A stretch of DNA of 64,000 bases from Whalleya microplaca. Its lineage: Eukaryota > Ascomycota > Sordariomycetes > Xylariales > Xylariaceae. The first letter of the stretch is position 1, and the number at the start of each line of letters is the position of its first letter. Below, piece after piece: positions 3,167 to 60,237 of the stretch. The notes beneath the pieces are model-generated. The model made no database searches. It saw only the letters and a list, made by a program, of their open reading frames with translations, and was not told the origin of the DNA. The stretch is from contig MU385716.1 of NCBI GenBank assembly GCA_022497155.1, positions 930,001-994,000 on the forward strand. The letters run 5' to 3'. A program made the translations under genes and the position numbers.

Positions 3167-6100
3167 TCACATAACCAAAGGGCCTAGTCCCCTCGCCCGC
3201 GCCGCCTTTTGTACTTCCTGCTTGATATCCCGTATCACGCCTTGCCAGGCCTGCTTGCCAGGGGAATCGGACTCATCCTCGTCCATCAAGTAGTCCAGCC
3301 ACCTAATCAACTTCAAGGCTTTGTCCATGTCCTTCTCTTCCAAGACAACCCTAACGAGGTACTTTTCCAACATCTCCACGTCCCCTCGGTGAGGACCTTC
3401 GTCTTTGGTCTCTCTGTGCCACACGTTCAACATCGCTCTTATCTCAGATAGGTTTGTCAATCCGGCCGTAGTAAACTTTATCTTTGCAGGTCGGGGAGGA
3501 AATTGTAGCCTCGTCTGCCCTCCTGGGAGAGCCTCCTCGGCATCTGCATCTTGATTTCGCTTGAGGTTAACCTTCAGATCCAAACCAGAACGCTGGGCTT
3601 TCCTTCGTCGATGATCGGCAATTACTTCTTTGCGCACCTCCTCAGGCAACTCGGCTAAGAAGTCTGGGTCAAGTTCTTCTATTTCGTTCGGCCTAACATC
3701 TTCCACTTGCTTGAAGGACAGAAAGTTCGTTTGGATCACTTTCGCGTTTGCATCTGCTTGCCTCTCACGAGCCCGAGAAAATAGATTGGGACCACGACGC
3801 TTAGTTGGCGTTGTCTTTTTAGTTGGTTGAATAATACGGTCCTTTCGCGGCGATTGAGGGAGTGCGTTCTGTCTCCCCTTAGGTTTATACGACTCCAGGA
3901 CCTCGGCCTTCATGTCGTCTGGTAATGCATTAAACACTTCTGGGTCGATGTCGGGCGGAATCTCATTGACTGGTGCTGGGCTTTGAGACCCTGATTTCGT
4001 TACTGGCGAACTATCTCGAGCCTCAAAGGAAGCTCTGCCTTGGCCCATTAGTCTACTTCGGATATCTGGGGGTAATTCTGCAAGCACTGTAGGGTCAGGA
4101 TTGGATGGCATGATGAACTGAGTGCCTCCAATGTTAAGCGGAGTATTTGCTTTTGTATCCGTCTCATTTGCTCGAGTTATTGTAAATGCTGGATGGGGAT
4201 TGCTCGACTTCGGTTTTCGAGGAGTCAAAGGACTTTCAGTAATTGGATCCTGCGACTCGCTTTGCCGTCGTTTCGAATTCCTGGCTTCATCTATATTACT
4301 GCCGTCTTGTATTGGCTCCAAAGCTGGCTTTTTTGCTGATCCAGGAGTCCGGAATGCGCCAAAGCTCAGCTTCTTCTGGCTTCCATCAGGACCTAATAAC
4401 GAAGTCTTGACGGGCTCAAGTTTTGTCAACTGGACACCCAACCCACGAAGATCGCCAGGACTGAACTTATAAGATCGCAGGATTGAGATCGCTTCTTTGC
4501 CTAACACCTGATAGTCGTGAGTGGCAACGCCAAACATGACACTCTTATTGAATGTGTCGCATTTGCCGTGTCCGAGATGTTTCGGAGGGTCAAGTGGTGC
4601 ATCAATTGCTCGTCGCATGATTTTCATGGTGAGCTGCTTACCCTTGACTTGCTCATTGAGCAGGCGCCTCTCTAATTCTTTGCATAGATTGGTTACGAAT
4701 TCCTCAGCTTCCTCCTGGCTGATGAACCGAATACCCCAATTGACTTCAGCTGAAACCGACTTCCGTATCGGTTGATCGCCAACTTCTGTCCGGTCAATAC
4801 CACGGGAGTATTCCCAAAGTTTCTCGCCTGTCTTAGGCCCAAGTGTGTTGATCAGACGCTCTCTGGAGGTTTGCCTAATATCGTTGACATATTTTATCCC
4901 GATCTCCTCCAGCTTGCCAGCAATGCTGTATGCGACGCCAGGCAAGTCATCGACCTTCAATTCTCCGAGGAAGCTTTGCACCTCTTCGGGTTTGATCTGA
5001 TGTTGTCCCGCGGGTTTAGCTTTCCGGAGTGCAACTCTCGCTAAAAGAATATTACCTCCTATACCAACGGAAACGGCGCAACCCGTTCTCTTCTTGACTT
5101 GGTCTCGTAGAACCTGCGCCATCTGATCCGCCTTTTCTTGTTCCCGCCATATACTACCTTCATCAATGCCGGAGCCTTCTGACCCAGCAGCAGAGAGGAC
5201 GATCGAGGTGATGTCCACAAGGGCCTCATCAATACTGACACTTTGCACAACGCCGCCGACCTCTAAGATGCTTTCGTAGAACAATTTGCTAGCCTCTTCG
5301 TAAGCCGGAAAATCGTATGGAAGAACCTTGACATCAGGGCACAACTCCTTTGCCCGCTTCATCCACATCCCATTCTTGACTCCATATTTCCTGGCTGGGT
5401 AATTGCAACTTGCAATTTCCGATCCAGTACCTGTGCCATGTGCAACCACTGCAGGCTTATCAACAAACTCTGGGGCGCTTTTCAGTGAGACTGCACAGAA
5501 GAAGCTATCGAAATCAACATGCATGATATAACGTCTTGCGCCTGGTTTTCTCTTGATAGGCTTGCTTTGAGGACCTTTTTCAGCTGCAAGCTTTTGCATT
5601 CTTGATTTCAATTCGGCTTTCCAAGTTGATAGGTGGTGAAGTCGACTTTCAGAATAGTATTGTTGAATAAAGTCTGGATTCGCAGTCGAGGACTTTCTCA
5701 TTCGAGGGTCTTGTAATAGCAAAGCGTTGTGTTCTTCAGAGGTCATTGCTTTTTCCTGCTCAAGCGAGGGTCCAGCGTCAACATCTCCTGCTGCCTCTTT
5801 GTTAAGGCAATGGGCCGATTCAGTATTGTCAGTAGCAGGTTCTTGTAATTCTGCGCCAGTCAAAATTGCAGGACTGTCGTGGGCATGACCCGAGTCTTCG
5901 GACGCATCAAGTTCATTATTCATGATCATATAATCGTCCTGATTGAGCACAAACGGCCCAGGCCGACTAGGCGACTCATCTCCAGCATGTTTCCCATCTA
6001 TAGATTGCGCGAAGCTTTTCAGTTGACTGGTATAGAAGCTGTTCTCTGTTTGTTCTCGATACCCTGTTAGCGATGACTGCTGTTCACTGGACTGCGTAGA

Positions 6101-6655
6101 GATCTTGTTTCCGTCAATCTTGAGGGTTTTCTGCCTAGGAGTCTCCTCAATGACACGGTAATCTGACCATGGCAGAAGCTTTCCAGCTTTGATACAATCA
6201 GCAACCCATTGAGGTTTAACTATTCTGTACTTGTTGAAGTCGACCATCTTTTTGGGGGGTAAACTAGAAGCTATAATATGAGTCGCCATAGTCTTAGAAT
6301 CCAAGTACTGGAGAAACCCGGCGCCATGTTGAACTAAGTCGCGATGAAGGCTGGCTAAAGTTAGGAAGATACCAAAAGAAATGAGCACAGGGCAGTATAA
6401 TACTGACATATGCAGTGGTGGTTGCGTGTATCCTGTAACGTGCGCGACGACGCCCTTGAATATCTGCGGCTTGTCTGGGGAAGATTCTCGGAGATCCGAA
6501 TCAAGGTTCTGTAGTTTGATCTTCTTGCGTCGGAAGTAATCTCCAAAGCCGCCAAAGGCACTGGGCTCATACTCTTCGCCTGTCTCATCCGAGAAGGTAT
6601 GGTTCTCAATGCGCTTTCGCACAGCATTGGAATTACTATCCAAACGGCTACCCAT
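3167..6655 (-). CDS. REV1: DNA repair protein REV1 (Y-family deoxycytidyl transferase)
   Basis: Translesion synthesis polymerase that inserts dCMP opposite lesions and scaffolds Pol zeta. The start at 6655 gives the conserved MGSRLD..NAVRKRIENHTF opening; an upstream ATG at 6769 adds an unlikely leader. A BRCT domain (about residues 50-140) is interrupted by a 57-bp intron, 6351-6407, that keeps the frame open; removing it restores PPLH-I-LHRDLVQHG and gives 1143 residues. The Y-family palm begins near residue 358 with HVDFDSFF, and the catalytic SIDE motif lies near 455. Ubiquitin-binding UBM-like motifs (LPPDI, IPPDIDPEVFNALP, LDPDFLAELP) lie near 846, 889 and 980, and a REV1 C-terminal interaction domain closes the protein. 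It is divergent from the RED-like gene and convergent with the WSC gene. Confidence 0.95.
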   Translation of the reverse strand: MGSRLDSNSNAVRKRIENHTFSDETGEEYEPSAFGGFGDYFRRKKIKLQNLDSDLRESSPDKPQIFKGVVAHVTGYTQPPLHMSVLYCPVLISFGIFLTLASLHRDLVQHGAGFLQYLDSKTMATHIIASSLPPKKMVDFNKYRIVKPQWVADCIKAGKLLPWSDYRVIEETPRQKTLKIDGNKISTQSSEQQSSLTGYREQTENSFYTSQLKSFAQSIDGKHAGDESPSRPGPFVLNQDDYMIMNNELDASEDSGHAHDSPAILTGAELQEPATDNTESAHCLNKEAAGDVDAGPSLEQEKAMTSEEHNALLLQDPRMRKSSTANPDFIQQYYSESRLHHLSTWKAELKSRMQKLAAEKGPQSKPIKRKPGARRYIMHVDFDSFFCAVSLKSAPEFVDKPAVVAHGTGTGSEIASCNYPARKYGVKNGMWMKRAKELCPDVKVLPYDFPAYEEASKLFYESILEVGGVVQSVSIDEALVDITSIVLSAAGSEGSGIDEGSIWREQEKADQMAQVLRDQVKKRTGCAVSVGIGGNILLARVALRKAKPAGQHQIKPEEVQSFLGELKVDDLPGVAYSIAGKLEEIGIKYVNDIRQTSRERLINTLGPKTGEKLWEYSRGIDRTEVGDQPIRKSVSAEVNWGIRFISQEEAEEFVTNLCKELERRLLNEQVKGKQLTMKIMRRAIDAPLDPPKHLGHGKCDTFNKSVMFGVATHDYQVLGKEAISILRSYKFSPGDLRGLGVQLTKLEPVKTSLLGPDGSQKKLSFGAFRTPGSAKKPALEPIQDGSNIDEARNSKRRQSESQDPITESPLTPRKPKSSNPHPAFTITRANETDTKANTPLNIGGTQFIMPSNPDPTVLAELPPDIRSRLMGQGRASFEARDSSPVTKSGSQSPAPVNEIPPDIDPEVFNALPDDMKAEVLESYKPKGRQNALPQSPRKDRIIQPTKKTTPTKRRGPNLFSRARERQADANAKVIQTNFLSFKQVEDVRPNEIEELDPDFLAELPEEVRKEVIADHRRRKAQRSGLDLKVNLKRNQDADAEEALPGGQTRLQFPPRPAKIKFTTAGLTNLSEIRAMLNVWHRETKDEGPHRGDVEMLEKYLVRVVLEEKDMDKALKLIRWLDYLMDEDESDSPGKQAWQGVIRDIKQEVQKAARARGLGPLVM

Positions 6656-7210
6656 GGTGATATGCTGCCAGCTCTTTCTCAAGGGTTCAAGATTTTGATA
6701 CCGATAGAATCTGTTCGATTGCCCGTGGCGATCTTTCGGTGCATGATCATCTTGGAAATGAGAACACAATCATGGCAAATGTCAAAGAGGCTGCGAAACT
6801 CTATTTCGCACCTCGTCCTATTCCGCATACATAGGGCGGCTTCGCTAGATAACCATGTATTTCATCCATATATGTATCTCATCAAAAGCAGGTCATGCCG
6901 ACGAAAGGGAACGCGTCCAACGACTATGCTGATTAATGTGACGCGGTTATATAGTCACGTCATCCCGTGACTTGAGAGAAAAAGAAAATCAATCAAGCGT
7001 GGAACGCCACATACGAGCTCCATATATTTACCTAAGAATTGCATCAGCCACATCCTTCAATTCGCATACATACTTGAGTACATAAGTACATTGTATGAAT
7101 CCATTAGTACCGTACGATACAACATTCAGCCTTAAAGATCGAAGGCCGACCTACCTTCCGTTAAGCCTCCCAAGCATGCACTATCGGCTCTCCATCACAA
7201 GATCGCAAAG
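6656..7210. promoter_or_regulatory. Shared divergent promoter region, REV1 / RED-like
   Basis: The 555 bases between two divergent start codons must hold the leaders and promoters of both genes. I see no TATA box or binding site that I can name with confidence. Confidence 0.5.
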
Positions 7211-26438: not shown

Positions 26439-27459
26439 GCGGTAGCCCATTGAAATCCAGAGAGTCGGAGCGGTTGAAAAGGCACCTACGGCTTGAGGAC
26501 TGTACAATTGTACATTATAGACGAAATAAGAATACAAAACCCCCAACACGAAGTTTCCTGATCATCATTTCACACTCAACTGCGGTCTTTGTCTTGAAAA
26601 TCCATACAGTGTTCTATCAACGTACAACCATGAACTTCTATATTCATGTATAAAATTATTTAGTTCTGGAGAATTCTCTCCAATAAATTCATCCTGTCTG
26701 TGATACACACACACACACATATATATATATGACTTATAAGGGTGACTGTGGATGATAGGCTGTACCGACTATGGGAAGTTATCGGTATTAGATTGACAAG
26801 ATCAATTCACAAGGTGGAATGTGAAGGAAGAAAAGCGGCATCATTCCACGTGTAATACGTATAAATAACTACATATGGACCTTGGATAGGTCATTGAGTA
26901 TATACCTAGGTACTTACCTCAGTGCTATCTACAATACGCATACAGGTACTGTGTAACAGAACCTTGACTGTCACCTGAATCAGCATCCATGCAGGTGCGC
27001 ACATCTACATATATCTACGGTAGTGGCTGACAGGCTGAGTGGGCGCTAAGGTTCACTGTGACGATATCCACCAAGAGCTGAATCCGAGTCCAGCTTATCG
27101 CCTTATCGCCGATAAGAAACATCCTACGTATTGGAGGGGACGAGGCTGCCAATCACTTCAACTGATTCAAACATCAACAACATCCACCAACAGCTTCGGT
27201 TTGCTCTTGTTGTCTCGTCATAGGGTCATCGCCTCTGTTTGAATTTGTATATTGCAAATCGACCAACGGACCTTGGCATGCTCGATTAGTACACATCTGA
27301 GTCATCCACCAGAACGCCACAGTCCCTCATACACAATCTCTCATACACCGTCCCTCATACAGTCCCTCATAACTCTCCACCTCTCCACCGACAGACCTTC
27401 GACCCCTCTCTCCCCTTCTCACTAATGAGGCCAATAATGATACCACGCCTGATTTAGCC
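26439..27459. promoter_or_regulatory. Intergenic region and UBR1 leader
   Basis: One kilobase between QCR9 and UBR1, same orientation. It holds a CA/TA dinucleotide run (26705-26730) and, at about 27320-27375, several imperfect copies of CCCTCATACA just upstream of the UBR1 start, likely in the leader or core promoter. No other gene seen. Confidence 0.6.
26705..26730. repeat. (CA)n(TA)n microsatellite
   Basis: Alternating CA then TA dinucleotides, about 26 bases. Confidence 0.9.
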
Positions 27460-30400
27460 ATGGACACAACAATGTCTACGCAGGAGCTGCAGCTCTGTCA
27501 GCACTTGATCGAGCTGCCAAGACGCCATGGCTACCGCTACGAGGACCCTGCTTCCCGTGACCTTCTATACAACCTCTTTTGGTCTATGGCCGGAGGTAAA
27601 CCCGAATACATGCGGCTGTTCTTCCCCGATGGCAAACTTACATCAAAGGGTACATTGAAGCTCAGAGAGGCCCAGGGAGCTTTGGAAGGCGCCGAATACA
27701 CCGAGGCCGCCCGAGGGAAGGCATGTGGTCATATCTTCAGGGCTGGCGAAGCATCATATGGTTGTAAGACATGCAGTACCGACGAAACTTGTTGCCTGTG
27801 CAGCAAGTGTTACAACGCCACAGATCATACAGGCCACATAGTTAGGATTTCGATATCTCCAGGAAATAGCGGCTGCTGTGATTGCGGTGATCCCGAGGCT
27901 TGGAAGACCCCGATGTTCTGCACCATCCACAGCGAGCGCGAGGAAGGTCGGTCCAAAGGAAAGGCCAAGGAGGCTGCTCCTCTCCCTGAGGATCTCGTTA
28001 CCAACATTCGCATGACCGTCTCTCGAGTACTCGATTTCATCTGCGATGTCATCTCCTGCGCCCCCGAACAGCTCCGACAACCAAAGACGAAAGAATCCAT
28101 CGAACAAGACGAGAAGATGTCCCGTTTAGCCTCGACATATTGTGGAGGAGATATCGACTCGCCTGAGGAATGGGCTTTGACGCTTTGGAATGACGAGAAA
28201 CATACCGTTAAGGAAGTCCAAGACCAAGTTGCCCGGGCCTGTAGCACGACTTCTAGCGAAGGGTATAACCGCGCCGTGGAAACCGACTCGATTGGCCGAA
28301 GTATTTTGAAGTATGACACAAGTATCGAGAAACTATTAAAATGCGCCACCATTCTTGAACATATCAAAATCACCGTCACCATTCGGTCCTCGCGAGATAC
28401 ATTTCGAGAGCAAATGTGCGGAGCTATGATTGACTGGCTCAACGACATTTCGGGATGTATGGTGGGAACCGATGACAATATTCTCCGTATGGTCGTCTGC
28501 GAGGAACTCTTAAAACCATGGCAAAAAGGTAGTCCTGGAACGCATGCTGTGCCCGGCAAGGATGGACTCGAGGATGAGGCCAAGCTTGAATACGATCCGC
28601 TTGAGGCACACACAGCAACAATATTCGTACAACGAGCTAGAATACTCGCAGAAACGAGGAACACAGCCACTCTAGCCGGGTTGGTCGATTCAGACGACGA
28701 CGATGACGACGACGAGGATGAGGATATGGACGGTGGCAATCGGACACCTTCTAGTGGAGATGAAGACAATGAGGAGGACGATGACGAGGACGAGGATGTT
28801 ATGATGGTGGACGCACGCCCAGATGCAAGCGGCGATGTAAATGTACCGGACTGGATCGGGCCAACAGTCGCCTCGCTCGAAGAGGAAGAAGCGACAATGG
28901 CAGGCTATCCACCACCTCCACCACCACCCCCTGTGCCGAGACGCGTAACTCGTGATCGAGATCTTACGCCCTCAGACTCTGATACCGCTGAGCCATTGAT
29001 CGCTCCAACGGTATATGCAAAAGCCTTAAATCTCGAGATCCCCAAGACGCCTGGTCTATCAAAGACAGATAAGTCAGGACCTCCAAAGCCAGGGAGGTAC
29101 TGGGTCGAGACACCGGCGGCCTATATGGAACGTGACAGTGTCCATCCATTTGAGGACGTCTTTCAGCGAGTTCGGCTTGACTGGTTGATCCTCTTCGACT
29201 TAAGGATGTGGAAGAAAGTTCGCAACGACTTACGATCATTGTACATTTCAACAGTCGTCACCATTCCCGAATTCAAGAGAGTTCTAGGTCTTCGATTCGC
29301 TGCCCTATATACGACACTAGCGCAGCTGTACCTCATCGGAGATCGGGAACCGGATCACTCGATCATCAACATTTCTCTACAGATGCTGACTACACCTTCT
29401 ATAACTGCCGAAGTGGTAGAGAGGGGCAATTTCTTGACAACCCTCATGGCTATTCTGTATACCTTCTTAACTACCAGACAGGTTGGCCACCCATGGGAAG
29501 TGTCTTCCAGCGCCGTCCTTGGGTTTGACACGGGATCCGTAACAAACCGCCGAATGTATCATTTCTACGTTGATCTGAAATTTCTCCTCGGCTCCCCTCA
29601 CGTCCAAGAGCGGATGAGAACTGAAGAGAGATATTTGATGCAATTCTTTGATCTGGTGAAGCTTCACCAAGGTATCTGCCCGAACGTCCGAGCCGTCGGT
29701 GAGCACGTGGAATATGAAACAGACAGTTGGATAGGAGCCTCCTTGATGACACGCGAAATAAACCGTCTTTGCAGGCTTTTGGCAGGCGCCTTCCGTAATC
29801 TCCCTGAACAGGACTCGCTCTACGTGTCCAAAGCTATTAGAGCAGCCGCAAAAAATGTTATCATCAACTCGATCGGGGCCGAGCGTGCTAGGTTCACTCA
29901 AGCTGAGATCAAAGATGAGGTCAGGTTCAAGGCGTTGACTGATTTCGAATTTGCCGGCGAGTCAAATAAATTTGACGTGGTCAAGTTTGTTGTAGAGGAG
30001 CAGTCGATCAGCTTCCATCACGCATTACATTACACGCTATCATGGCTGATTGAGTGTGGAAAGCAAATGTCTGTGCAGCAGCTCAGGTCGGTCTTGAGCT
30101 TCACGTCCCAGGAACTTAAGATGAAGCCTAGGTCGATGGGCCGAAAGATCATGCCTAAGCGAGACTATGGCGATGAAGATTACCTCATGGCCGCATTCGA
30201 TTATCCCCTACGAGTATGCACATGGCTGGCTCAGATAAAAGCAGGAATGTGGGTACGCAATGGTATCAGTCTCCGGCACCAGGCTGGGACTTATCGAAAC
30301 ATACTTCATCGGGACGTTACCCATGCCCGAGATATTTTCCTGCTCCAGACTGCCATGGTAGTCTGCAACCCCAGCCGTGTTCTTGCTTCCATTGTTGATC

Positions 30401-33400
30401 GCTTTGGCATGGAGCACTGGGTCAAGGGCTTGTTTGAAGTGACTTCGAGTGGCCAGGATGAGATTCAGCATCTAGATGTAGTCGAGGACATGATTCATCT
30501 TCTGATTATAATGCTGAGTGATCGAGCATCCCTCGTCCCAGTCGATGACGAGCACCAAACCCACCTCATGGCTATGCGGCGAGATATTACCCATGTTCTA
30601 TGCTTCCGGCCATTGTCCTTCAACGAAATCACCAACAAATTACCAGAGAAATTCCACGAGCAGGAGGACTTCCACCGCGTACTAGATGAGGTGGCCACAT
30701 TCAAGCCTCCTGAGGGCGTGTCGGATGTGGGAACTTTTGAGCTCAGGCCGCAGTTCATCGAGGATGTCGATCCTTACATTGCTCACTATAACAAAAATCA
30801 ACGAGAAGAATCGGAGGCCGCTTATCGCAAATGGATGGCGAACAAGACGATGAAGCTTCCCGAAGAAATCGTATATGAGCCCAGGCTGCGACCGATTGAG
30901 TCTGGTGCCTTCACGGGGTTGGCGCAGTTCACTGGTACTGGGATGTTTGCGCAGATTATCTACTACTGCTTACTCTATCCCCTCGTGGCTGCTAAGTTTA
31001 CCCCCAAGGTCCCATTCACTAGAATAGAAACGTTCTTGCAGGTTGTGCTGCACTTGATCCTCATAGCAATTTCCGAGGATAAGGCAGAGGAGCATTCCGC
31101 GAACGAGACGGGGTCATTCGTCTATATTGCGTTGACAACACATGCTCGCAGTAACTACATGCAAGATGCTCCAGCTGCAAAGACAATTGTCTCCCTCTTA
31201 GATATGATGTCGACTAAAGAAGAGCTCAAGTCCTGCCACTCCAAGATTTCCCTGATCCTGAAGCGAATGAGACAGAAGTATCCTCAGCACTTTGACACAG
31301 CCTACATGCGATTGGGGATACCGGTAGACAGGATTGATACAGCGTCTCCAGCAAGTGCGAACAACGGCGAAGAAGAACGCGAGCGGAAAAAGAGGGCCGC
31401 ACTCGACCGTCAAGCCAAGGTCATGGCGCAGTTCCAACAGCAACAAAAAAGCTTCCTGGAAATGCAAGGGGACATCGACTGGGGAGAGGAAGACCTGGAT
31501 GAGATGAATGATGGCCAGCCGATCGAGGAGCAGAAGAATTATTGGAAGTACCCAAGAGGCACGTGCATACTGTGTCAAGAAGAAACCGATGATGGGCGTC
31601 TGTACGGGACTTTCTCACTTTTCACTGAGAGCAAGATCTTGCGCCAAACCGACCTCCAAGATCCCGATTTTGTTAGAGAGGCTGCAGGCACACCGGTCAA
31701 CTTAGATCGCTCAGCTGAAGCTATACGCCCCTTTGGTCTTGCCCACGAGAACAGAAAGATGGTAGAGAAAGTCCACGCATCTGGACAGACATTCCTAGAA
31801 GAAAAACAAGGCGTCGGCAAGGGCTTCCCCGCTAAGATTTGTCGATCAGGACCTGTGTCTGTGGGCTGTGGTCATATAATGCACTTTACCTGCTTCGACC
31901 TGTACATGGAGGCAACGCAACGCCGACATGGACATCAAATTGCCCGCCACCATCCCGAGTCTTTGGACAAGTTAGAGTTTGTCTGTCCTCTTTGCAAGGC
32001 CCTTGGAAACGCATTTCTACCCATCACTTGGGACGGCAAAGAAGAGGCTTACCCCGGTATTCTCCAGACTGATACCGACTTATCTTCCTTCATGGACTTG
32101 CACCTGAGCGAACTTCACCATACCGCGGTAGCGCCTCATGACCTAGCTCAGACTGCATTCCTCAATTATCTACTCACGAAAATGCCGGAGAGACTACAAG
32201 ACAAAACCAATGTTGCACCCATGAGCCTCTGGGATCCCATCGGCATACGGTCAGCATCGTCAGTAACTTCTTCCAGTGATGCCTTTTCTGGAGCAGTCAC
32301 TCCTGGATCAAGCGTTCGGTCGGGCTCGCCATCAGAGCCACATGGTGATAAAGAGTTGATGCTCATCTACCGACGTCTGCGCGATACGCTTCGTAAGAAC
32401 AAGCTCACTGTGGCGCCTGATAGCAAAGATAAGGAAGACGATCTGTATGCTAGCGACACCTTAGCACAGTCTGTTGGCTTCTCAATTTCTGCGGCCGAGA
32501 TACAACAACGCGGCGTGGAGGCTCAGTATGGAATGACTCTGATCGAGAGGATCCCCGAGCAAATATTGATTCAGCTGAGAATTCTGGCCGAGACGGTCTC
32601 TTCTTACATAGCAGTTGGTGGTCTCCGATATGGGGGAGACAACCAGATCGAGAAGGAGTTCCGCAAAGCCAGCGAGCGCCAGCATTGCCAACTCTTCGTA
32701 TCGGCTTACTATGATCAAGAGACGAAGACCAGCGGCCGGCCGTTTGATGAGTATCCGCCGCTCTTGAGCCAGGACTCATTCATATTCTTGTGCGAGGCTA
32801 TCTTCGGCATGTCTGTCGCGCAATGCATGGATACAATGCATTTGGTCCGCCTTTGCTATCTTGCTGAGATAGTCAAGGTAGTCCACCATATATCTCAGAA
32901 TCTCCCACTTTCTAAATGGCTCGAGAATAGGGGTAATCGGAACACAGAGGATCCTGCGATGAACAATTTTGCCAATTTCTTCAATTACATCACAGTATTT
33001 GGGATGAATGTCAGCCATGAGGTCCCAGAGCCATCCGTCGACCTACCCAACCTTGGATTCGACCAACCGGGCCTGGAAAGCTTAGAAGGCCTTCACTCTT
33101 TTGTCCGGAAGTATGCTCTCACATTCTTGCGAAAAGTGGCAATCCTCCTTCACGTCCATCAAGGTGTCGATTTCAACAGCCACATCTCTCCGGTCCCTGA
33201 AGCAGACGAGCTTACGCGTCTCACGGCCGCATTGCGACTACCATCCTTCGACGAGATGTGCACGGCATTAACCCCTCTGAGCACCCAGTTCGGCTGGCCC
33301 GCACGCACCGAAACCATCGTCCAGGGCTGGCTTCGCCATCAAATCAGCTGGCCCACCACGGGCGGCAGAAACCTGGCGGAGACCTTACCCGCCTCCGCGC

Positions 33401-33972
33401 AGATCAGCCACCCCGGTATCTTCGAGCTCATCGGTCTGCCCAAGAACTACGACGCGCTCATTGAGGAGTGCGCTAAGAGGAGGTGCCCGAAGACCGGCAA
33501 GGATCTGGCGGACCCCATCATCTGTCTCATGTGCGGCGACGTCTTCTGCGGGCAGACCATGTGCTGTCTTATGGAGTACCAGGATCCCGCGTCCAACAAG
33601 TCCGCGATCAGGATCGGAGGCGCGCAGCAGCACATGTTATTCAAGTAAGCAGTCTATATACCTACGCGCGTGTCGTACTTACTAACCAGATTCACCCCCT
33701 CCAGATGCCAAGGCAACATCGGGCTCTTCATCAACATCCGCAAGTGCGCCATCTTCTACCTGCACCGCACGTCGGGCAGCTTCAGCAACGCGCCGTACAT
33801 CGACAAGTACGGCGAGGTCGACATCGGGCTCCGCCACGGCCGCCCGCTCTACCTCAACCAGAAGCGCTACGACTCCATGGTGCGCACCATGTGGCTCAGC
33901 CACGGCGTCCCCAGCTTCATCAGTAGGAAACTCGAGGCGGACATTAACAGTGGCGGGTGGGAGACCATCTGA
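27460..33972 (+). CDS. UBR1: E3 ubiquitin ligase UBR1 (N-recognin)
   Basis: Ubiquitin ligase of the N-degron pathway: it recognises destabilising N-terminal residues and, with a Ubc2-type E2, marks proteins for the proteasome. Exons 27460-33644 and 33705-33972 (60-bp intron, GTAAGC..TCCAG); 2150 residues. A UBR box at about 88-158 carries the zinc Cys/His pattern (CGHIF, CKTC, CCLCSKCY, HTGH, CCDCGDPEAW) for basic N-ends. A ClpS-like domain (about 233-310, LTLWNDEKHTVKEV) serves hydrophobic N-ends. An acidic stretch (about 407-447) and a polyproline segment follow. The RING-H2 spans about 1369-1512 (CILCQEE, CGHIMHFTC, CPLC), and the C-terminal UAIN region (PIICLMCGDVFCG) is completed by the small second exon. 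A second ATG at codon 5 is possible. Confidence 0.95.
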
Positions 33973-39337: not shown

Positions 39338-39852
39338 GCGGTTGATCGATCGGTTGATGAGAATGAGAATGATTGCTACTATTCTACGACGACGAAGAGA
39401 AGAAGAATGAAACGAAATATGGATATTCTATATATAAACTTGGAAAACCCCAGGGAGAAGAAGAAGTAATGTATGTTGTATTAATTATTAGGAGAGAACA
39501 GCGGCGGTGAAATACCGAGCTTGCTTTTGTTGTTGTTTGTTGTATGGAAGAGAGAGAGAGAGAGAGAGAGAATATGTAGGAGCTAGTGATACCATAATGA
39601 ACAATACAGGAATCGTGTAAACATGTTATCCTAACGCTGCTGTTTCTCTTCGAACGTTTCTTCTTTTTCACAGCTGAAAAAAATCCTTCTTCAGCATTCT
39701 GTTTTTCTCCTTCGTTTCCACCTCCTTTTTTTCCGTTAATCCTTGCTTGCTTGCTTGCTGACCCATTCAGCACTCATCACCACTCCTGCTCCTATCCACC
39801 CTCCTGCTCCTCCCGATCGAATCTCGGAACACTCACACGCACGCAGCAATTC
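39338..39852. other. Convergent 3' region with (GA)n run
   Basis: About 515 bases between the convergent ISC1 and kinase genes, containing a GA dinucleotide run at 39549-39571 and pyrimidine-rich tracts to 39730. No gene. Confidence 0.6.
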
Positions 39853-42800
39853 TCAAGCACCCCCGCGTCCACAATGCCAGGCGCGATAAGAAGCCAGCTC
39901 AGCGGCATGCTGCTGCAGCTCCGCCATCCCAACCCCCTTCCCATCCCCTCCGCCATCGCCCTGGCCATCCTCCCCCCACGCATTGCCGCCCCAGCCCACA
40001 ATTCCCGGGGAAGAAGCACCACCGCCGCTACCGCACCCCTTGATGCGCGAGTACGTGTACCCCATGAAAGCCGTGCGCTTGCGGACCTCGAGCACGACGG
40101 CCTTGGTGCCGCGGTCGCGCAGCAGCCGGTCGCGCGGCCGCTTGCGCTCGCGGCGCCCGTACGTGCGAACGAAGGCCTTCATCTGCGCTGCGAGCCCCTG
40201 CGCCTCTTCGTGACGGTGGTGGTGCGCTCCCCCCGCCGCAGTAGCCGCAGCGGTCTCGATCTCGCGGTCCATGCGCTTGAGGCGCGCCGCGTCGTACGGC
40301 GCCGCCACGAACTGGCCCACCAGCGCCCGCGCGCTGGTGGGGAACGCGGCCAGCTGCGCCTGGATCGCCGCCAGCTTCTCCGGGCTCCGGCGGAGCAGCG
40401 GCGGCGGCAAAGGTGCGATACAGCTGCGCGGGAGGACGGTCGCCAGCGCGCTTGCGCCGCCGCTGCCGGCTGCGATCAGGGGGTTGGTCTGGATGTCCTC
40501 GGTCTCCGAGCTCGTCTCGGCCTGGGACTCGGACCAGTCCGATATGGACTCCTCCTCGTCGAAGTAGTGCGTGTCCTCGCTGCCGTTGAGCTGGGGCACG
40601 AAGGGCGGCGAAATCTGGTGCAGCCGGTCCCAGGGAATGTCGCGGAAGAACTTGTGCGCTTTGATGTCCTCCGCGTCGTGGGGATACACCGAACGGCCCG
40701 TCCAGTCTTGGTATCCGCGGCGATGGCGGCTTTTGCTTGAAGGGGAGGGGTTGGGGCTCCGGTCCCGGTATTGATACCGTTTTGAAGAGAGGCGGGCCTC
40801 TTTCTCGGTGACTAGATTGGCGATGAGATCCATACATCGTCTTGAGACGACTGGGCGTGGCGGAAACGCGAATGTCTGCTTGTGGTTGACGATATTGCGC
40901 TTTGTCTGCTGGCGTCCACCCTCATCAGATAGAAACGGAGTATGGCCGTACAGACACTCGTACAAAATGACGCCGACACTCCACTAGTCGCATCTCGCAT
41001 CGTACTCACCTTCGCGGATGACTTCAGGAGCCATGTACTGGCTCGTTCCCACACAAGACCTCGCTGCGCTACGGTTCCCATATCGGTTGCGCCAATTCAA
41101 GAGTGGTTCGTCCAGCAAGGGGGAAGGTATATCCAAATGCAAGCGCTCGTGCTTTCGCATCGCCTGCGCTACACCTTGAGCCCATTTCACCGAGCCCTGC
41201 AAGCCTTTAGCCCGATCCAGAGCGTCTCCTTCGACCGATATGCCTAGTGTCTGGAGCAAGCTGTATCGTTGGGTGTGATAATAGCTAATGTCGTGAGACC
41301 AGTGACCATCAAATGCTAGACCAAAGTCGGAGAGCTTCAAATGGCCGGACGCGTCGATAAGGAAGTTGTCTGGTTTAATATCACGGTGGATGCAACGCAG
41401 AGAATGCGCCTCTTCGATACACAGAATCATCTCAGCAATATAGAATTTCGCGACTGGCTCGTTAAGGATATTCTCTCGAATAAGGAGGCCCAGAAAATCG
41501 CCACCAGGCATGTATTCCATGACGAGATAAAGATTAGCAGCATCTTGAAAGCTGGCGACCAAAGGTACAATCCTGGAATGATTTCCATTAGTTCATCATT
41601 GCACTGTAGAATTCGACAGATATTGCGACGAACCAATTTGCGCCTTCTGAAGCAACTAGAAAGTCTCGCTCGGCACGCAAGTGTCCCTCTTGGCTCGTCC
41701 TTAGCATTGTTGATTTGCGGATAACCTTCATGGCATACACATTTTTGCCGCGATGTACATCATATCCCCGGCCAACGGGGCCTGCCTTCTCGCGAACAAG
41801 TCTGACGACACCGAAGCTTCCCTTGCCCAGTATTTTCAAGACTTCGTAATTTTCGGCCAGCTGATTGTGTTTCCCCTCCACGGCACCGATGCTTTTCCCT
41901 ATTAGAGCACGTGTCTCGCGAAGATGGTCACTCTCTCGCTGAAAGAATATTCGACGCCGCATATTCTTCTCTGCTTCGGTCAGTCTGTCAGCGTGATAGA
42001 GCTCTCCTTCCAGATATCGCCGGCGAAGAGACCGCGGGCTAGGTTTGGATAGTTGCTCATTAAAGAAGGTCTCGAGAACAATTTTCGCGGCTGCAGCTCT
42101 CTCAACGGTGAGGATGGTCGGTGATGTTATATCGAGAGCGGTCTCCTGGATTGTCGTAAGATTCGAGTCGGTGTTTGCATCGGCCTCCGGCTCTCTACGG
42201 CGGAGGGGGCTTACAGATTTTTTCTCCCCCGAGTTGTGGTCTTTGCTTGATGTTTTCGAGTCGGTCGAGGTCTTGCCGGTTGTGCCCGTGCCATTTGTTG
42301 TATTGGACGACTTGCCACCAGATGTTGTATTGCTATTCGAGTTACTGTAGCTATTACTATTCGAGTTACCGTTTGTCATAGACGAAATGACGATCTCGGG
42401 AATACCAGCCGGACCAGGCTCGTTGGCGGCTCTCTCCATAGAACGAACGGAAGGTCTCGATTTGGATCTTATCCGATGAATGACGGTGACAGAAGCGCCA
42501 AGAGTTCCTCTATAGAATGGCATAGCCATCCTCTTGAAGAGCTTTCGTGGTTCGGTCGACTTCTCCCCTGGAGTAGGCGAAGGAACTGGCCAAGTCGCAG
42601 GCTCTCTGATCGAACTACTAGAGTCTGAACTCATCAGAGACGTGATAGTATACAACTAGATGGGATTTGGAGACTACTCACTGCTATTTGTTAACGAACG
42701 TAGTGCAGACATGACTCTCGATCCTTGGTGTCTGAGTTTCCGAGGTTGCTCGCCTCTCTCGGGCATCGACAATGATGTATAAGATGGAGTTGCAACCGGC

Positions 42801-42871
42801 GACGTCCCATCTTGCAACATGAGGGATGGCGTACTACCTATCGCCAACAACTCATGGTTCATCTTGTCCAT
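39853..42871 (-). CDS. PUK1: NDR-family AGC kinase with in-frame TAG; probable PUK1 orthologue needing mRNA editing
   Basis: Three exons, 42682-42871, 41634-42624 and 39853-41572, with introns of 57 bp (GTGAGT..TTCAG) and 61 bp (GTTCGT..CCAG); 966 codons, all phases agreeing. Kinase landmarks: LGKGSFGVVRL (about 329), AMKVIRKS, VMEYMPGGD, HRDIKPDN (about 454), DFGLAF (about 476), a long activation-loop insert, CVGTSQYMAPEV (APE 575-577), then EYDARCD-stop-WSVGVILYECLYG. The stop is a TAG at 40984-40986 (codon 590) in place of the conserved Trp; the same frame continues for 376 codons of recognisable kinase and tail. Without readthrough or editing the product ends before the C-lobe. Known family biology: Fusarium PUK1 has UAG codons at this site that are edited to UGG in perithecia. 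Orthology is inferred from motif position and domain type. Confidence 0.85.
40974..40990 (-). promoter_or_regulatory. Candidate RNA-editing hairpin at the TAG codon
   Basis: In the sense RNA, CGAC (40990-40987) can pair with GUCG (40977-40974), leaving a 9-base loop that starts UAGUGG. The A of the TAG is the second base of the loop, preceded by U and followed by G. Fungal A-to-I editing is known to favour a 5' U and hairpin loops. The stem is only 4 bp, so this is suggestive. Confidence 0.4.
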
Positions 42872-43882: not shown

Positions 43883-45610
43883 CTATTTGATCGCCAACAA
43901 CTTAATGTCGAAAATCAAAGTGCTATTCCCAGGAATGCCTGGCTGGGCTTTGCTGCCATACGCGAGGTTCGCAGGGATAGTGAGCCGGCGCTCGCCGCCG
44001 ACTGACATGCCTTGCACTCCAATATCCCATCCCTTGATAACTTCTCCCTTACCAGCAGTGAAACTGAACGGCTTTCCCTTCTTATTGGCTGCACTTATGT
44101 TAGCATATGCTTCCTAGATTGGCTTATCATGTAGACTCACAATCGAAGACCTTGCCGTCTTGAAGTTTACCGATGTATCTCACATCGACCTTGTTGCCCT
44201 TCTTCACCACTCGGCCAGAACCTACCTTACGGTCGTCAACAGTCACACCTTGGATCGTCTTGACACCAAGGGTAGCACCCTTCTCAGCGGCAGCTGAACC
44301 GGTAGGACCCTGCTCGAGATTCTTGGCAAACTGCACTTTCTTGTCGCTCTTGTCGGCCTTGGCAGGAGTCTCCTTTGCAGACTCAGTCTTGGCTTCTTCC
44401 TTGGTAGCAACGGGCTCGCCCTTGTTGTTCTTGAGCTTCTTTTGTTGTTTCTTGCTAAGCTTTGTCTCTGGGGCCGCATCGGCCTTGGCGATCAAATCGT
44501 CGAGGCTCTCAGGCTCATCCTCGGCACGACGCTTGTTCTTGCCCTTCTTGGTCTCGGCCGCAACTAGCTTGGGCGCTTCCTCCTCGTCAGTGTCCACTTC
44601 TGTGACACGAGGGTCTTCCATACCATCTAGTTCATCGACTTCCGAGTCTTCGGAATCATATTCCTCAATCCCGTCCATACCAGCAGGGAAGTCATAATCA
44701 TCTTCATCATCCTCTTCGTCATCAGAACTCTCTTCGTTGGTATCGACAATGTAGTTGCCGGTCAAGTGGATAGTATGAGTACCCTTGACCACAAAGAAGA
44801 CCTCCTCGTCGGGGCCGATGGTGAGGTCAAGCGGCTGTTGGTAATTCTTCGGAATGTGTTAATATAATGAATGTTACAGATATCTGATATGGGTGAAAAC
44901 TTACACGCTCAGTGTCAAGGGTGCAGACAACGAGCTGCTCAATGTCCATGTCGTTGGAATCGACGCTCTCGTCGTCATCGTCATCACTGGATGTGGCAGG
45001 TTCCTTTCCCTTCTTGCTGGACTTGGCGACACCGTTGGGCTTAGCACCATCTTCCATCTCCTCGTCGGAATCCTCCTCGTGTTGGGCGGCCTGAATAAGC
45101 TTCTGTAGAGCCGCCTCCTGTCTGGCCTTCTTTGACTTAGAAGGGTCACTGGGGCCGCCATTGGGCTCGTCATCGCCGTCTTCGTCTTCATCATCATCTT
45201 CGTCAGAGGAACCACCACCCATCAGCTCGTCTAGGTAGTCGTCATCGAGCTCGTCATCCAGAGAGGGTCGCTTGCGGATGATCTTCAAGGTAGATCGCGG
45301 GACATTGGGAATCTCGCCGTCCTCATCAGCCTCGGGTGCTTCGGTAGGGTCAAGAGCGGCCATGGTGATGCGATACTGTATGCCATGTTAACAACCGATG
45401 TTCGGACCTAAGGGCATGAATATGGCGATGCGACATGTGAGGATTTGGGTCGCAGGCAAGCGCTGGCTAAACAAGGGAGATAGATTCACTATGTTCAGGA
45501 TGACGAATACTCACAGCAGCACCAGGAATACTGTCTTCCTGCATGGCAGGAATCATGACGCCTAACGGCGGAATCTCGAGCCCATAGAGGGCAATAGGCA
45601 GCATTGACAT
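43883..45610 (-). CDS. FPR4: Nucleolar FKBP-type peptidyl-prolyl isomerase (Fpr3/Fpr4 type)
   Basis: Catalyses cis-trans isomerisation of prolyl bonds; in yeast Fpr3/Fpr4 act as nucleolar and histone chaperones. Four exons: 45515-45610, 44905-45375, 44141-44846 and 43883-44088; 492 residues. The first exon encodes the conserved [20 protein letters not shown] start, continuing after a 139-bp intron as [12 protein letters not shown], the nucleoplasmin-like N-terminal domain, completed by [18 protein letters not shown]. Long acidic runs and Lys-rich stretches follow (about 120-370). The C-terminal FKBP domain (about 385-492) carries [32 protein letters not shown] and [19 protein letters not shown], so the FK506 pocket residues are present. 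The GTGAGT intron at 44089-44140 splits the FKBP domain. Confidence 0.93.
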
Positions 45611-58590: not shown

Positions 58591-60237
58591 ATGTCCTGCA
58601 CGTCCTTTGCTTTTGGGTCCCATGAGTCGCATGAGGACCTGGCTGAAGCCCGAAGCTCCGGCGCCTTAGGTCGAGAGAACCCGCCGAGGCAACGGAGACG
58701 GCAATCTTCTTTCACATCCCGGCGAAGAAAGTCGATAGTCAACCAAATCATGGACGGTGAAGAAGTCCTGCTGCTCAAGGTCTGTTTTACCGCTTGTTTT
58801 AAGAACACTGTAATACGGTGAGGCAAATATTGACCAACATAGGTTGATCTGTTCCTCTCGGAACTTGAGAGACGGCTCGAACACCTCGAGAACTACGGCG
58901 AGCTTATCGACCTCGATGCGAGTATACCGAAGGCTTTTACCACACTACAGGCCGTACGAGAACGATGCTCGCAAGTTTCAGAAGAGGTTCTAGGCGCTGG
59001 TCGACGGCGAATGCAGATCATGGTTGAAACATTGGACACAAGATACCATGAGGCTCTGGCGGCAGCTGAGTCCATGAACGAGAAGGCTCGGGTTGGCATC
59101 GAGTTGTTAGACAGCATGCTTACCGATTTTGAGGTCCGGGCTTTGAAGCTTCGTGACCAAGGCCTCGCCAATGCCGCAGATGCTGCTGGAAGCCTGATGG
59201 GCGAAGGCCGACGAGTCATGGACGAGTCCCTCGAACGTGCCCGCGGTGTCATGGACGACGGTTTCGAGCGAGCCAAGCACACCACGGAATCCCTCAAGGA
59301 ACACATTCAATATGCTGTTACTCGCGCAAGGGAACAAGGATTGATCCAGTACACAGAGCTTCCCATTCCGTGGAGGATTAATCCTCACATTATTAATGGT
59401 TATCGATTTACCGAATCGAAAATTGGTTGCATTCGCTCCGTGTTCGGCGTTTCCAACGAGACCGTGAATATTTGGTCTCACGCATTAGGATTGATATTGG
59501 TTTTGTCCATCGCATTCTACTTCTACCCTACATCCGCCAATTTTTCTATGTACACTAATACGGACATTTTTATTGCTGCTGTTTTCTTCTTCGCGGCCTG
59601 CAAGTGTCTGATTTGCAGTACCATCTGGCATACGATGAACTGCGTCGCGGACCAAACTCTTATGGAGCGCTTCGCGTGCATTGACTACACTGGTATATCT
59701 TTACTTATCGCTGCGTCGATCATGACCACGGAGTACACCGCCTTTTATTGCGAACCCATCAGCCGCTGGACCTACATTACTGCGACGGCGGTTCTGGGCA
59801 TCGCCGGTACTATCCTACCGTGGCATCCGAAGTTCAATGGTCAAGATATGGCGTGGTTGAGAGTGGGTTTCTTCATAGGATTAGGCGGTACCGGCTTCTT
59901 GCCCGTCTTCCAAATAATCCTCACTCGAGGTCCTGCCTGGGCTTTCGAGTTTTACACAGGTTCCAACCTTCTAAAGTCTCTCTTTGTCTACGTCATTGGG
60001 GCCTGCGTCTACGCAAGTAAAGTCCCCGAGCGATGGTTTCCCGGTAAATTCGACTATTGCTTCAATGCCCATAACTTCTGGCATGTGAGTGACAGTGCTC
60101 CTTCCCGCTGACAGTAACCGAACTAACAGGGTGTATAGTTTGCTGTGCTCGGTGGGATCCTCTACCACTATGTAGCCATGCAAGAATTCTTCACGGGTGC
60201 CTTCCAGCGTGCACAAGAAGGCTGTCCCAAATATTAA
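58591..60237 (+). CDS. IZH3: PAQR / haemolysin III family receptor with coiled-coil N terminus (IZH3-like)
   Basis: Exons 58591-58779, 58843-60084 and 60139-60237; 509 residues. The first 200 residues are soluble, with coiled-coil heptads (LFLSELERRLEHLENYGELI) and a repetitive amphipathic stretch (MDESLERARGVMDDGFERAK). The PAQR domain follows, with the conserved opening WRINPHIINGYR, SVFGVSNETVNIWSHALGL carrying the first zinc-site His region, CSTIWHTMNC, and FNAHNFWHFAVLGGILYHY with the HxxxH pair, whose second His is the last codon of exon 2. About seven membrane segments are visible. Yeast Izh proteins influence zinc and sterol homeostasis, and the long N-terminal extension is the mark of Izh3. 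Localisation (endoplasmic reticulum or plasma membrane) is inferred. Confidence 0.88.

Follow-up and report, generated by a model that had tools for sequence, protein, structure and literature searches.

A Whalleya microplaca NDR-type kinase gene, whose sequence supports orthology with PUK1 of Fusarium and STK-21 of Neurospora, carries a genomic stop codon, TAG, at a conserved kinase tryptophan (codon 590), and it is very likely a known RNA-editing switch, since the stop lies at the Trp position that is corrected during sexual reproduction in Neurospora and Fusarium. The gene lies in the window analysed here, a stretch of 64,000 nucleotides from contig MU385716.1 (positions 930,001 to 994,000; assembly GCA_022497155.1), and all coordinates below are positions in this window unless a contig is named. 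In the explanation that we favour with high confidence, which predicts editing from the genome, the gene is stop-gated and its UAG is corrected by editing in perithecia. Translation in vegetative cells would halt at residue 589, so that the remainder of the kinase C-lobe would be missing. Tad2-Tad3-Ame1 would deaminate the A of UAG in perithecia to give UIG, read as UGG, and the edited transcript would yield the full 966-residue kinase for ascospore formation. The points counted for this explanation include the UAGUGG match to N. crassa NCU03242, the position of the gene in the kinase tree, its FKBP neighbour, the codon implied at the same place in relatives, conservation downstream of the stop and the editing machinery in the genome.

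Re-reading of the coding sequence bore out what the first-pass annotation had claimed for the coordinates of the TAG, its codon number and the continuous frame of 966 codons. The features used in the argument are the following.

42682..42871, minus strand: exon 1 of the PUK1/stk-21 orthologue, with the start ATG at 42871; matches the deposited protein P0002
41634..42624, minus strand: exon 2 of the PUK1/stk-21 orthologue, from the reading frame and GT-AG introns
39853..41572, minus strand: exon 3, with the TAG and the C-terminal part; Pfam Pkinase, top PDB match CBK1 4lqp
40984..40986, minus strand: in-frame TAG, codon 590, where the DWW(S) block of the kinase has its first Trp; the A predicted to be edited is at 40985
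40812..41009, minus strand: 198 nt (GTGAGT...CTAG) that the deposited model P0002 treats as an 'intron'
40960..41005, minus strand: putative hairpin from RNA fold prediction, its apical loop holding the A of UAG
43883..44858, minus strand: last part of a gene with NPL and FKBP_C domains, upstream of the kinase, ending in TAG at 43885-43883; the gene start lies further upstream

Both introns of the kinase gene (42681-42625, 57 bp; 41633-41573, 61 bp) are GT-AG, and the 966 codons ahead of the terminal stop contain no frameshift and a single internal stop, codon 590, with the surrounding bases GCGAC TAG TGGAG (residues CD[TAG]TGG). The first-pass annotation had placed the stop in a conserved D-W-W block, and this placement holds: CDWWS is read in all of the listed homologues that keep the region (44 of 120), and the W. 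microplaca stop occupies the first W. A genomic stop at the conserved kinase Trp codon 590 is thus confirmed. A random nonsense change among the 966 codons would have a chance of about 1/966 of striking this one.

A-to-I mRNA editing in fungi was discovered in PUK1 (FGSG_01058) (PMC4817773). The UAGUAG of PUK1 is converted to UGGUGG in F. graminearum perithecia, the UAGUGG of N. crassa NCU03242 is likewise converted to UGGUGG in perithecia, F. verticillioides FVEG_01191 has UGGUAG, also edited in perithecia, and M. oryzae and Claviceps paspali already have G in the genome (PMC4817773). An allele with added stops was unable to complement the puk1 deletion (PMC4817773), and a role in ascospore formation is reported for both F. 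graminearum and N. crassa (PMC4817773, PMC7306014). The W. microplaca stop matches the N. crassa and F. graminearum sites, as the first reading had proposed (PMC4817773). That reading also held that one editing event would be enough because the second codon is already TGG; this is correct, yet N. crassa equally has TAGTGG (PMC4817773), and the W. microplaca state is the already published N. crassa state, even to the exact codon.

The known cases differ from W. microplaca in separate ways. N. crassa stk-21 (NCU03242) is an orthologous NDR kinase with one UAG at the same codon, and its model P0120 likewise omits the site; editing has been seen in RNA there and is predicted in W. microplaca. F. 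graminearum PUK1 is an orthologue with a stop at the same Trp codon, a false-intron annotation and an FKBP neighbour (seen in F. longipes and Stachybotrys), but its stop is tandem, compared with the single UAG of W. microplaca. In the orthologue FVEG_01191, too, a single codon of the Trp pair is UAG and is edited in perithecia, although there it is the second one. The Pyricularia (Magnaporthe) oryzae orthologue belongs to the same kinase clade, but both As are G in its genome, its model P0116 reads WW and it needs no editing. Conservation between species is often lacking for any single editing site, and such sites may have arisen neutrally (PMC5381528).

The PUK1/stk-21 orthology put forward at first reading is supported by a tree, by database matches and by a common FKBP neighbour. 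By sequence, the protein is an NDR-type kinase, with a Pfam Pkinase domain and yeast CBK1 as its best PDB match (2e-59); the A. nidulans kinome paper classes stk-21 as AGC/NDR and lists it beside cot-1 and dbf-2 (PMC3591445). The tree comparison with PUK1/stk-21, proposed earlier as a check, was run on 30 rows and 230 columns, with the genome's own COT1 and DBF2 (named by sequence) as comparison, N. crassa model P0120 treated as STK-21 by homology, and F. culmorum and F. anthophilum standing in for F. graminearum PUK1. It placed the gene inside the STK-21/Fusarium clade, a group of 28 rows with N. crassa, Fusarium, Sclerotinia, Pyricularia and others that leaves the genome's own COT1 and DBF2 outside (99.8/100, SH-aLRT/ultrafast bootstrap). 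Identity of the W. microplaca kinase is 78% to N. crassa (210 columns), 45% to its own COT1 (230 columns) and 44% to its own DBF2 (203 columns). The kinase models P0256 (Stachybotrys chartarum) and P0308 (Fusarium longipes) are NPL-FKBP-kinase fusions, so the FKBP neighbour is the same in these two species, and the FKBP gene upstream of the kinase on the same strand appears to be a neighbour conserved with two Hypocreales.

The deposited W. microplaca protein (P0002) has 900 aa, that is, 966 minus 66: it joins the first 581 and the last 319 residues of the frame and leaves out the 66 residues that hold the stop. If the 198-nt intron used by this model (41009-40812) were real, it would remove the TAG in frame, perhaps by alternative splicing beside editing; its length is a multiple of three, and GTGAGT is a strong splice donor. 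The stop of F. graminearum BUD14 is acted on by both editing and alternative splicing (PMC11156358). Such an intron would, however, cut 66 residues out of the kinase domain, a piece with a counterpart in 25/25 Leotiomycete and 6/6 Magnaporthales listed models, and false introns have been documented for PUK1 and 69 other edited F. graminearum genes (PMC4817773); we consider a real intron unlikely. The supposed introns of relatives vary in both start and end and the WW-type orthologues keep the piece, so the intron of the deposited model is probably false and called to dodge the TAG. The original annotation of PUK1 itself had the same fault, a false intron (PMC4817773), and such introns also mark the conserved edited stop of another gene, CHE1 (PMC11169179). 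In W. microplaca, a consensus-like GTGAGT donor (41009-41004, minus strand) starts 23 nt ahead of the TAG, and a C precedes the TAG (CTAG), a combination by which gene callers would readily be misled into a false intron. A 26-nt GTGAGT...CTAG intron ending at the TAG (41009-40984) was rejected as too short and out of frame.

The comparison of codons across Sordariomycetes suggested by the first-pass annotation was run through gene models. Codons of relatives were inferred from the exon junctions of protein models among the best matches listed, and groups were assigned from genus names. The Trp pair (WW) is read by 44/120 listed homologues; the other 76 are without WW, some of them truncated or rearranged, so that the lack of WW does not always mean a stop. 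By group, WW is read in 25/25 listed models of Leotiomycetes, 6/6 of Magnaporthales, 4/4 of Diaporthales, 1/1 of Coniochaetales, 2/6 of Sordariales, 0/1 of Calosphaeriales and 3/3 of the remaining rows, and in 3/73 listed models of Xylariales (W. microplaca among the 73), where 70/73 lack the site; these groups together with P0121 (Hypocreales) make up the 120. Among the Hypocreales listed (67 of 70 further rows, plus P0121), the pair is read in 1/68 and lacking in 67/68, and the other three of the 70 further rows (Verticillium and two more) read WW in two cases. No Trp pairs in other contexts were found among the listed rows counted as non-WW. This use of gene models as a proxy fits two known cases: N. 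crassa, with a known UAG, omits the site, and Pyricularia oryzae, with a genomic G, reads WW. Editing is not known from the class Leotiomycetes.

Across residues 341-760, 32 of 42 ten-residue blocks are covered at ≥0.9 in the 73 listed Xylariales models, and coverage at residues 583-590 drops to as little as 3/73, while residues 584-599 are present in 25/25 listed Leotiomycete models. A second trough at about residues 538-544, again down to 3/73 listed Xylariales, is a length-variable stretch and is low in Leotiomycetes too. In 20 other listed Xylariales models, the exon ends before a Val codon (GTN donor) and reading resumes with the second Trp; if the intron is GT-AG, this restart implies NAG at codon 590, and TAG is the simple reading of that NAG because WW-type relatives have Trp there. 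Eight listed Xylariales models restart at the Ser past the second Trp, which implies NAG at codon 591; these two sets are the Xylariales models whose junctions indicate the codon. Among the listed Hypocreales models, NAG is implied at codon 590 in 3 and at codon 591 in 17, and 4 include the first Trp but skip or break off after it. Parsimony over 133 rows required nine state changes, on a tree built without the site region, rooted on Leotiomycetes and with Hypocreales represented by 12 new rows and P0121 out of 68 listed; the three WW Xylariales, Rosellinia necatrix, Nemania sp. FL0916 and Pestalotiopsis fici, are single tips in this tree. As WW is read in 3/73 listed Xylariales models, the stop is not indispensable. 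The comparison nonetheless suggests that most Xylariales share the stop-gated state, which looks near-universal in the order. Near-universal stop-gating in Xylariales was not found in print in the open-licence literature, a weak absence; the relevant passages of PMC4817773 give the stop in Fusarium and Neurospora only, and Xylariales would be an added point.

Conservation continues past the stop. Identity to Xylariaceae sp. FL0662B is 67/70 for residues 591-660, 103/117 for 661-780, 49/64 for 781-862 and 45/55 for 863-925. Against N. crassa, the block 863-925 has 33/56 identical residues compared with 40/120 for residues 1-230, and the final block (926-966) is poorly conserved (6/28). The 376 downstream codons had been described as free of decay; by these blocks of protein identity, much of the stretch is conserved, and it holds no further stop. 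An in-frame UAG at a conserved Trp is therefore followed by a part that appears to be under selection. TGG to TAG is a type of change made by RIP, and a recent loss of function, in which a nonsense mutation or RIP turned the gene of this isolate into a pseudogene, would fit the base change. Yet the stop is single and unaccompanied by frameshifts, the sequence beyond it is conserved, NAG is implied at codon 590 in the 20 other listed Xylariales models, and the indices over the CDS (TpA/ApT 0.63; (CpA+TpG)/(ApC+GpT) 1.21) are not RIP-like, as RIP would raise the first and lower the second; we regard loss of function as very unlikely. A RIP-degraded pseudogene was rejected on the same two indices and the presence of one stop only.

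Two further explanations concern the codon itself. A one-base sequencing or assembly error would be carried by the deposited model as well as by the window, as both come from one assembly and are not independent. Such an error would nevertheless have had to strike the very codon that is edited in N. crassa and F. graminearum (PMC4817773), and the same 20 Xylariales models imply NAG there, which makes it hardly credible. Decoding of the UAG without editing, by ribosomal readthrough or a suppressor tRNA, sits poorly with the neighbouring FKBP gene, which stops at TAG three residues past its domain. UAG-UGG is not known to serve as a readthrough context. At this codon, editing is the mechanism described in the literature (PMC4817773), and we give unedited decoding next to no chance.

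Correction by editing would call for the corresponding machinery, and the genome encodes Tad2 along with two further proteins, one Tad3-like and one Ame1-like, the latter with the Met-Val residues required for mRNA editing. In Ame1, MV500-501 is needed for Tad3 binding and editing, and KN is the ancestral state (PMC11087585). Four DUF726 loci are present (L004, L005, L006 and L007), of which L007 (C5:314218-315312) carries Met-Val at the Tad3 contact and the remaining ones carry NQ, RN and LD. MV is found in 108/120 listed L007 homologues, including the deposited protein of this genome, and in the five named Leotiomycetes of this list the pair is KN (four) or KS (one), with KN and KT in two further rows. 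L007 is accordingly termed Ame1-like, an assignment by similarity and the MV signature. Tad2 is encoded at L009, and a Tad3-like frame lies at L029 (C5), where the significant match spans the C-terminal part only. Five of the 120 listed Ame1-like homologues, P0133 (Anthostomella), P0156, P0181, P0186 and P0205 (Hypoxylon), have LV, VI, II or VL in place of MV, so the pair is not universal in Xylariales; these five may be paralogues or variants competent for editing. At the catalytic HxE position, the Tad3-like frame reads NPMAHAALRA, by eye with Ala for Glu and not the usual Val.

The RNA context of the predicted edited A is compatible with editing. Published preferences are U at -1, A or G at +1 and +3, and hairpin loops (PMC11156358; also PMC9600606); the site (CUAGUGG) has U at -1 and G at +1 and +3, in line with the preference, the first two being true of any UAG. 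In the predicted hairpin (40960..41005), the probability that the A lies in the apical loop is about 0.98 with 30-nt flanks, the flank length of the published method. This value ranges from 0.95 to 1.00 with flanks of 10 to 40 nt, and is 0.60 at 50 nt and 0.01 at 60 nt. The same loop probability is reached by 6 of 98 other UA sites in the CDS, and the fold energy is no better than that of shuffled sequence (z = -0.03). The modelled hairpin is therefore a weak line of evidence, compatible with editing and not proof of it.

Beyond the single gene, the PUK1 stop could be a developmental lock held by selection through most Xylariales and Hypocreales and no tolerated accident, moving between the adjacent Trp codons with at least one stop nearly always kept, and absent from a few lineages, among them the listed Magnaporthales and Diaporthales; we offer this tentatively and lean somewhat against it. 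Outside the fruiting body, the kinase may do harm. Should nearly all Xylariales share the stop-gated state, selection versus drift would be testable with one gene in many species. The 70/73 listed public Xylariales models that lack this piece of the catalytic domain probably need correction.

The surroundings of the kinase gene include other features. The fused models P0256 and P0308 are a further annotation error. A 379-codon open frame (39601-40740, plus strand) lies antisense to the 3' part of the kinase gene and is probably mechanical. A REV1-like polymerase (3170-6769, minus strand), a UBR1-like E3 ligase (27373-33645, plus strand) and an HlyIII-family membrane protein (58843-60108, plus strand) are ordinary neighbours.
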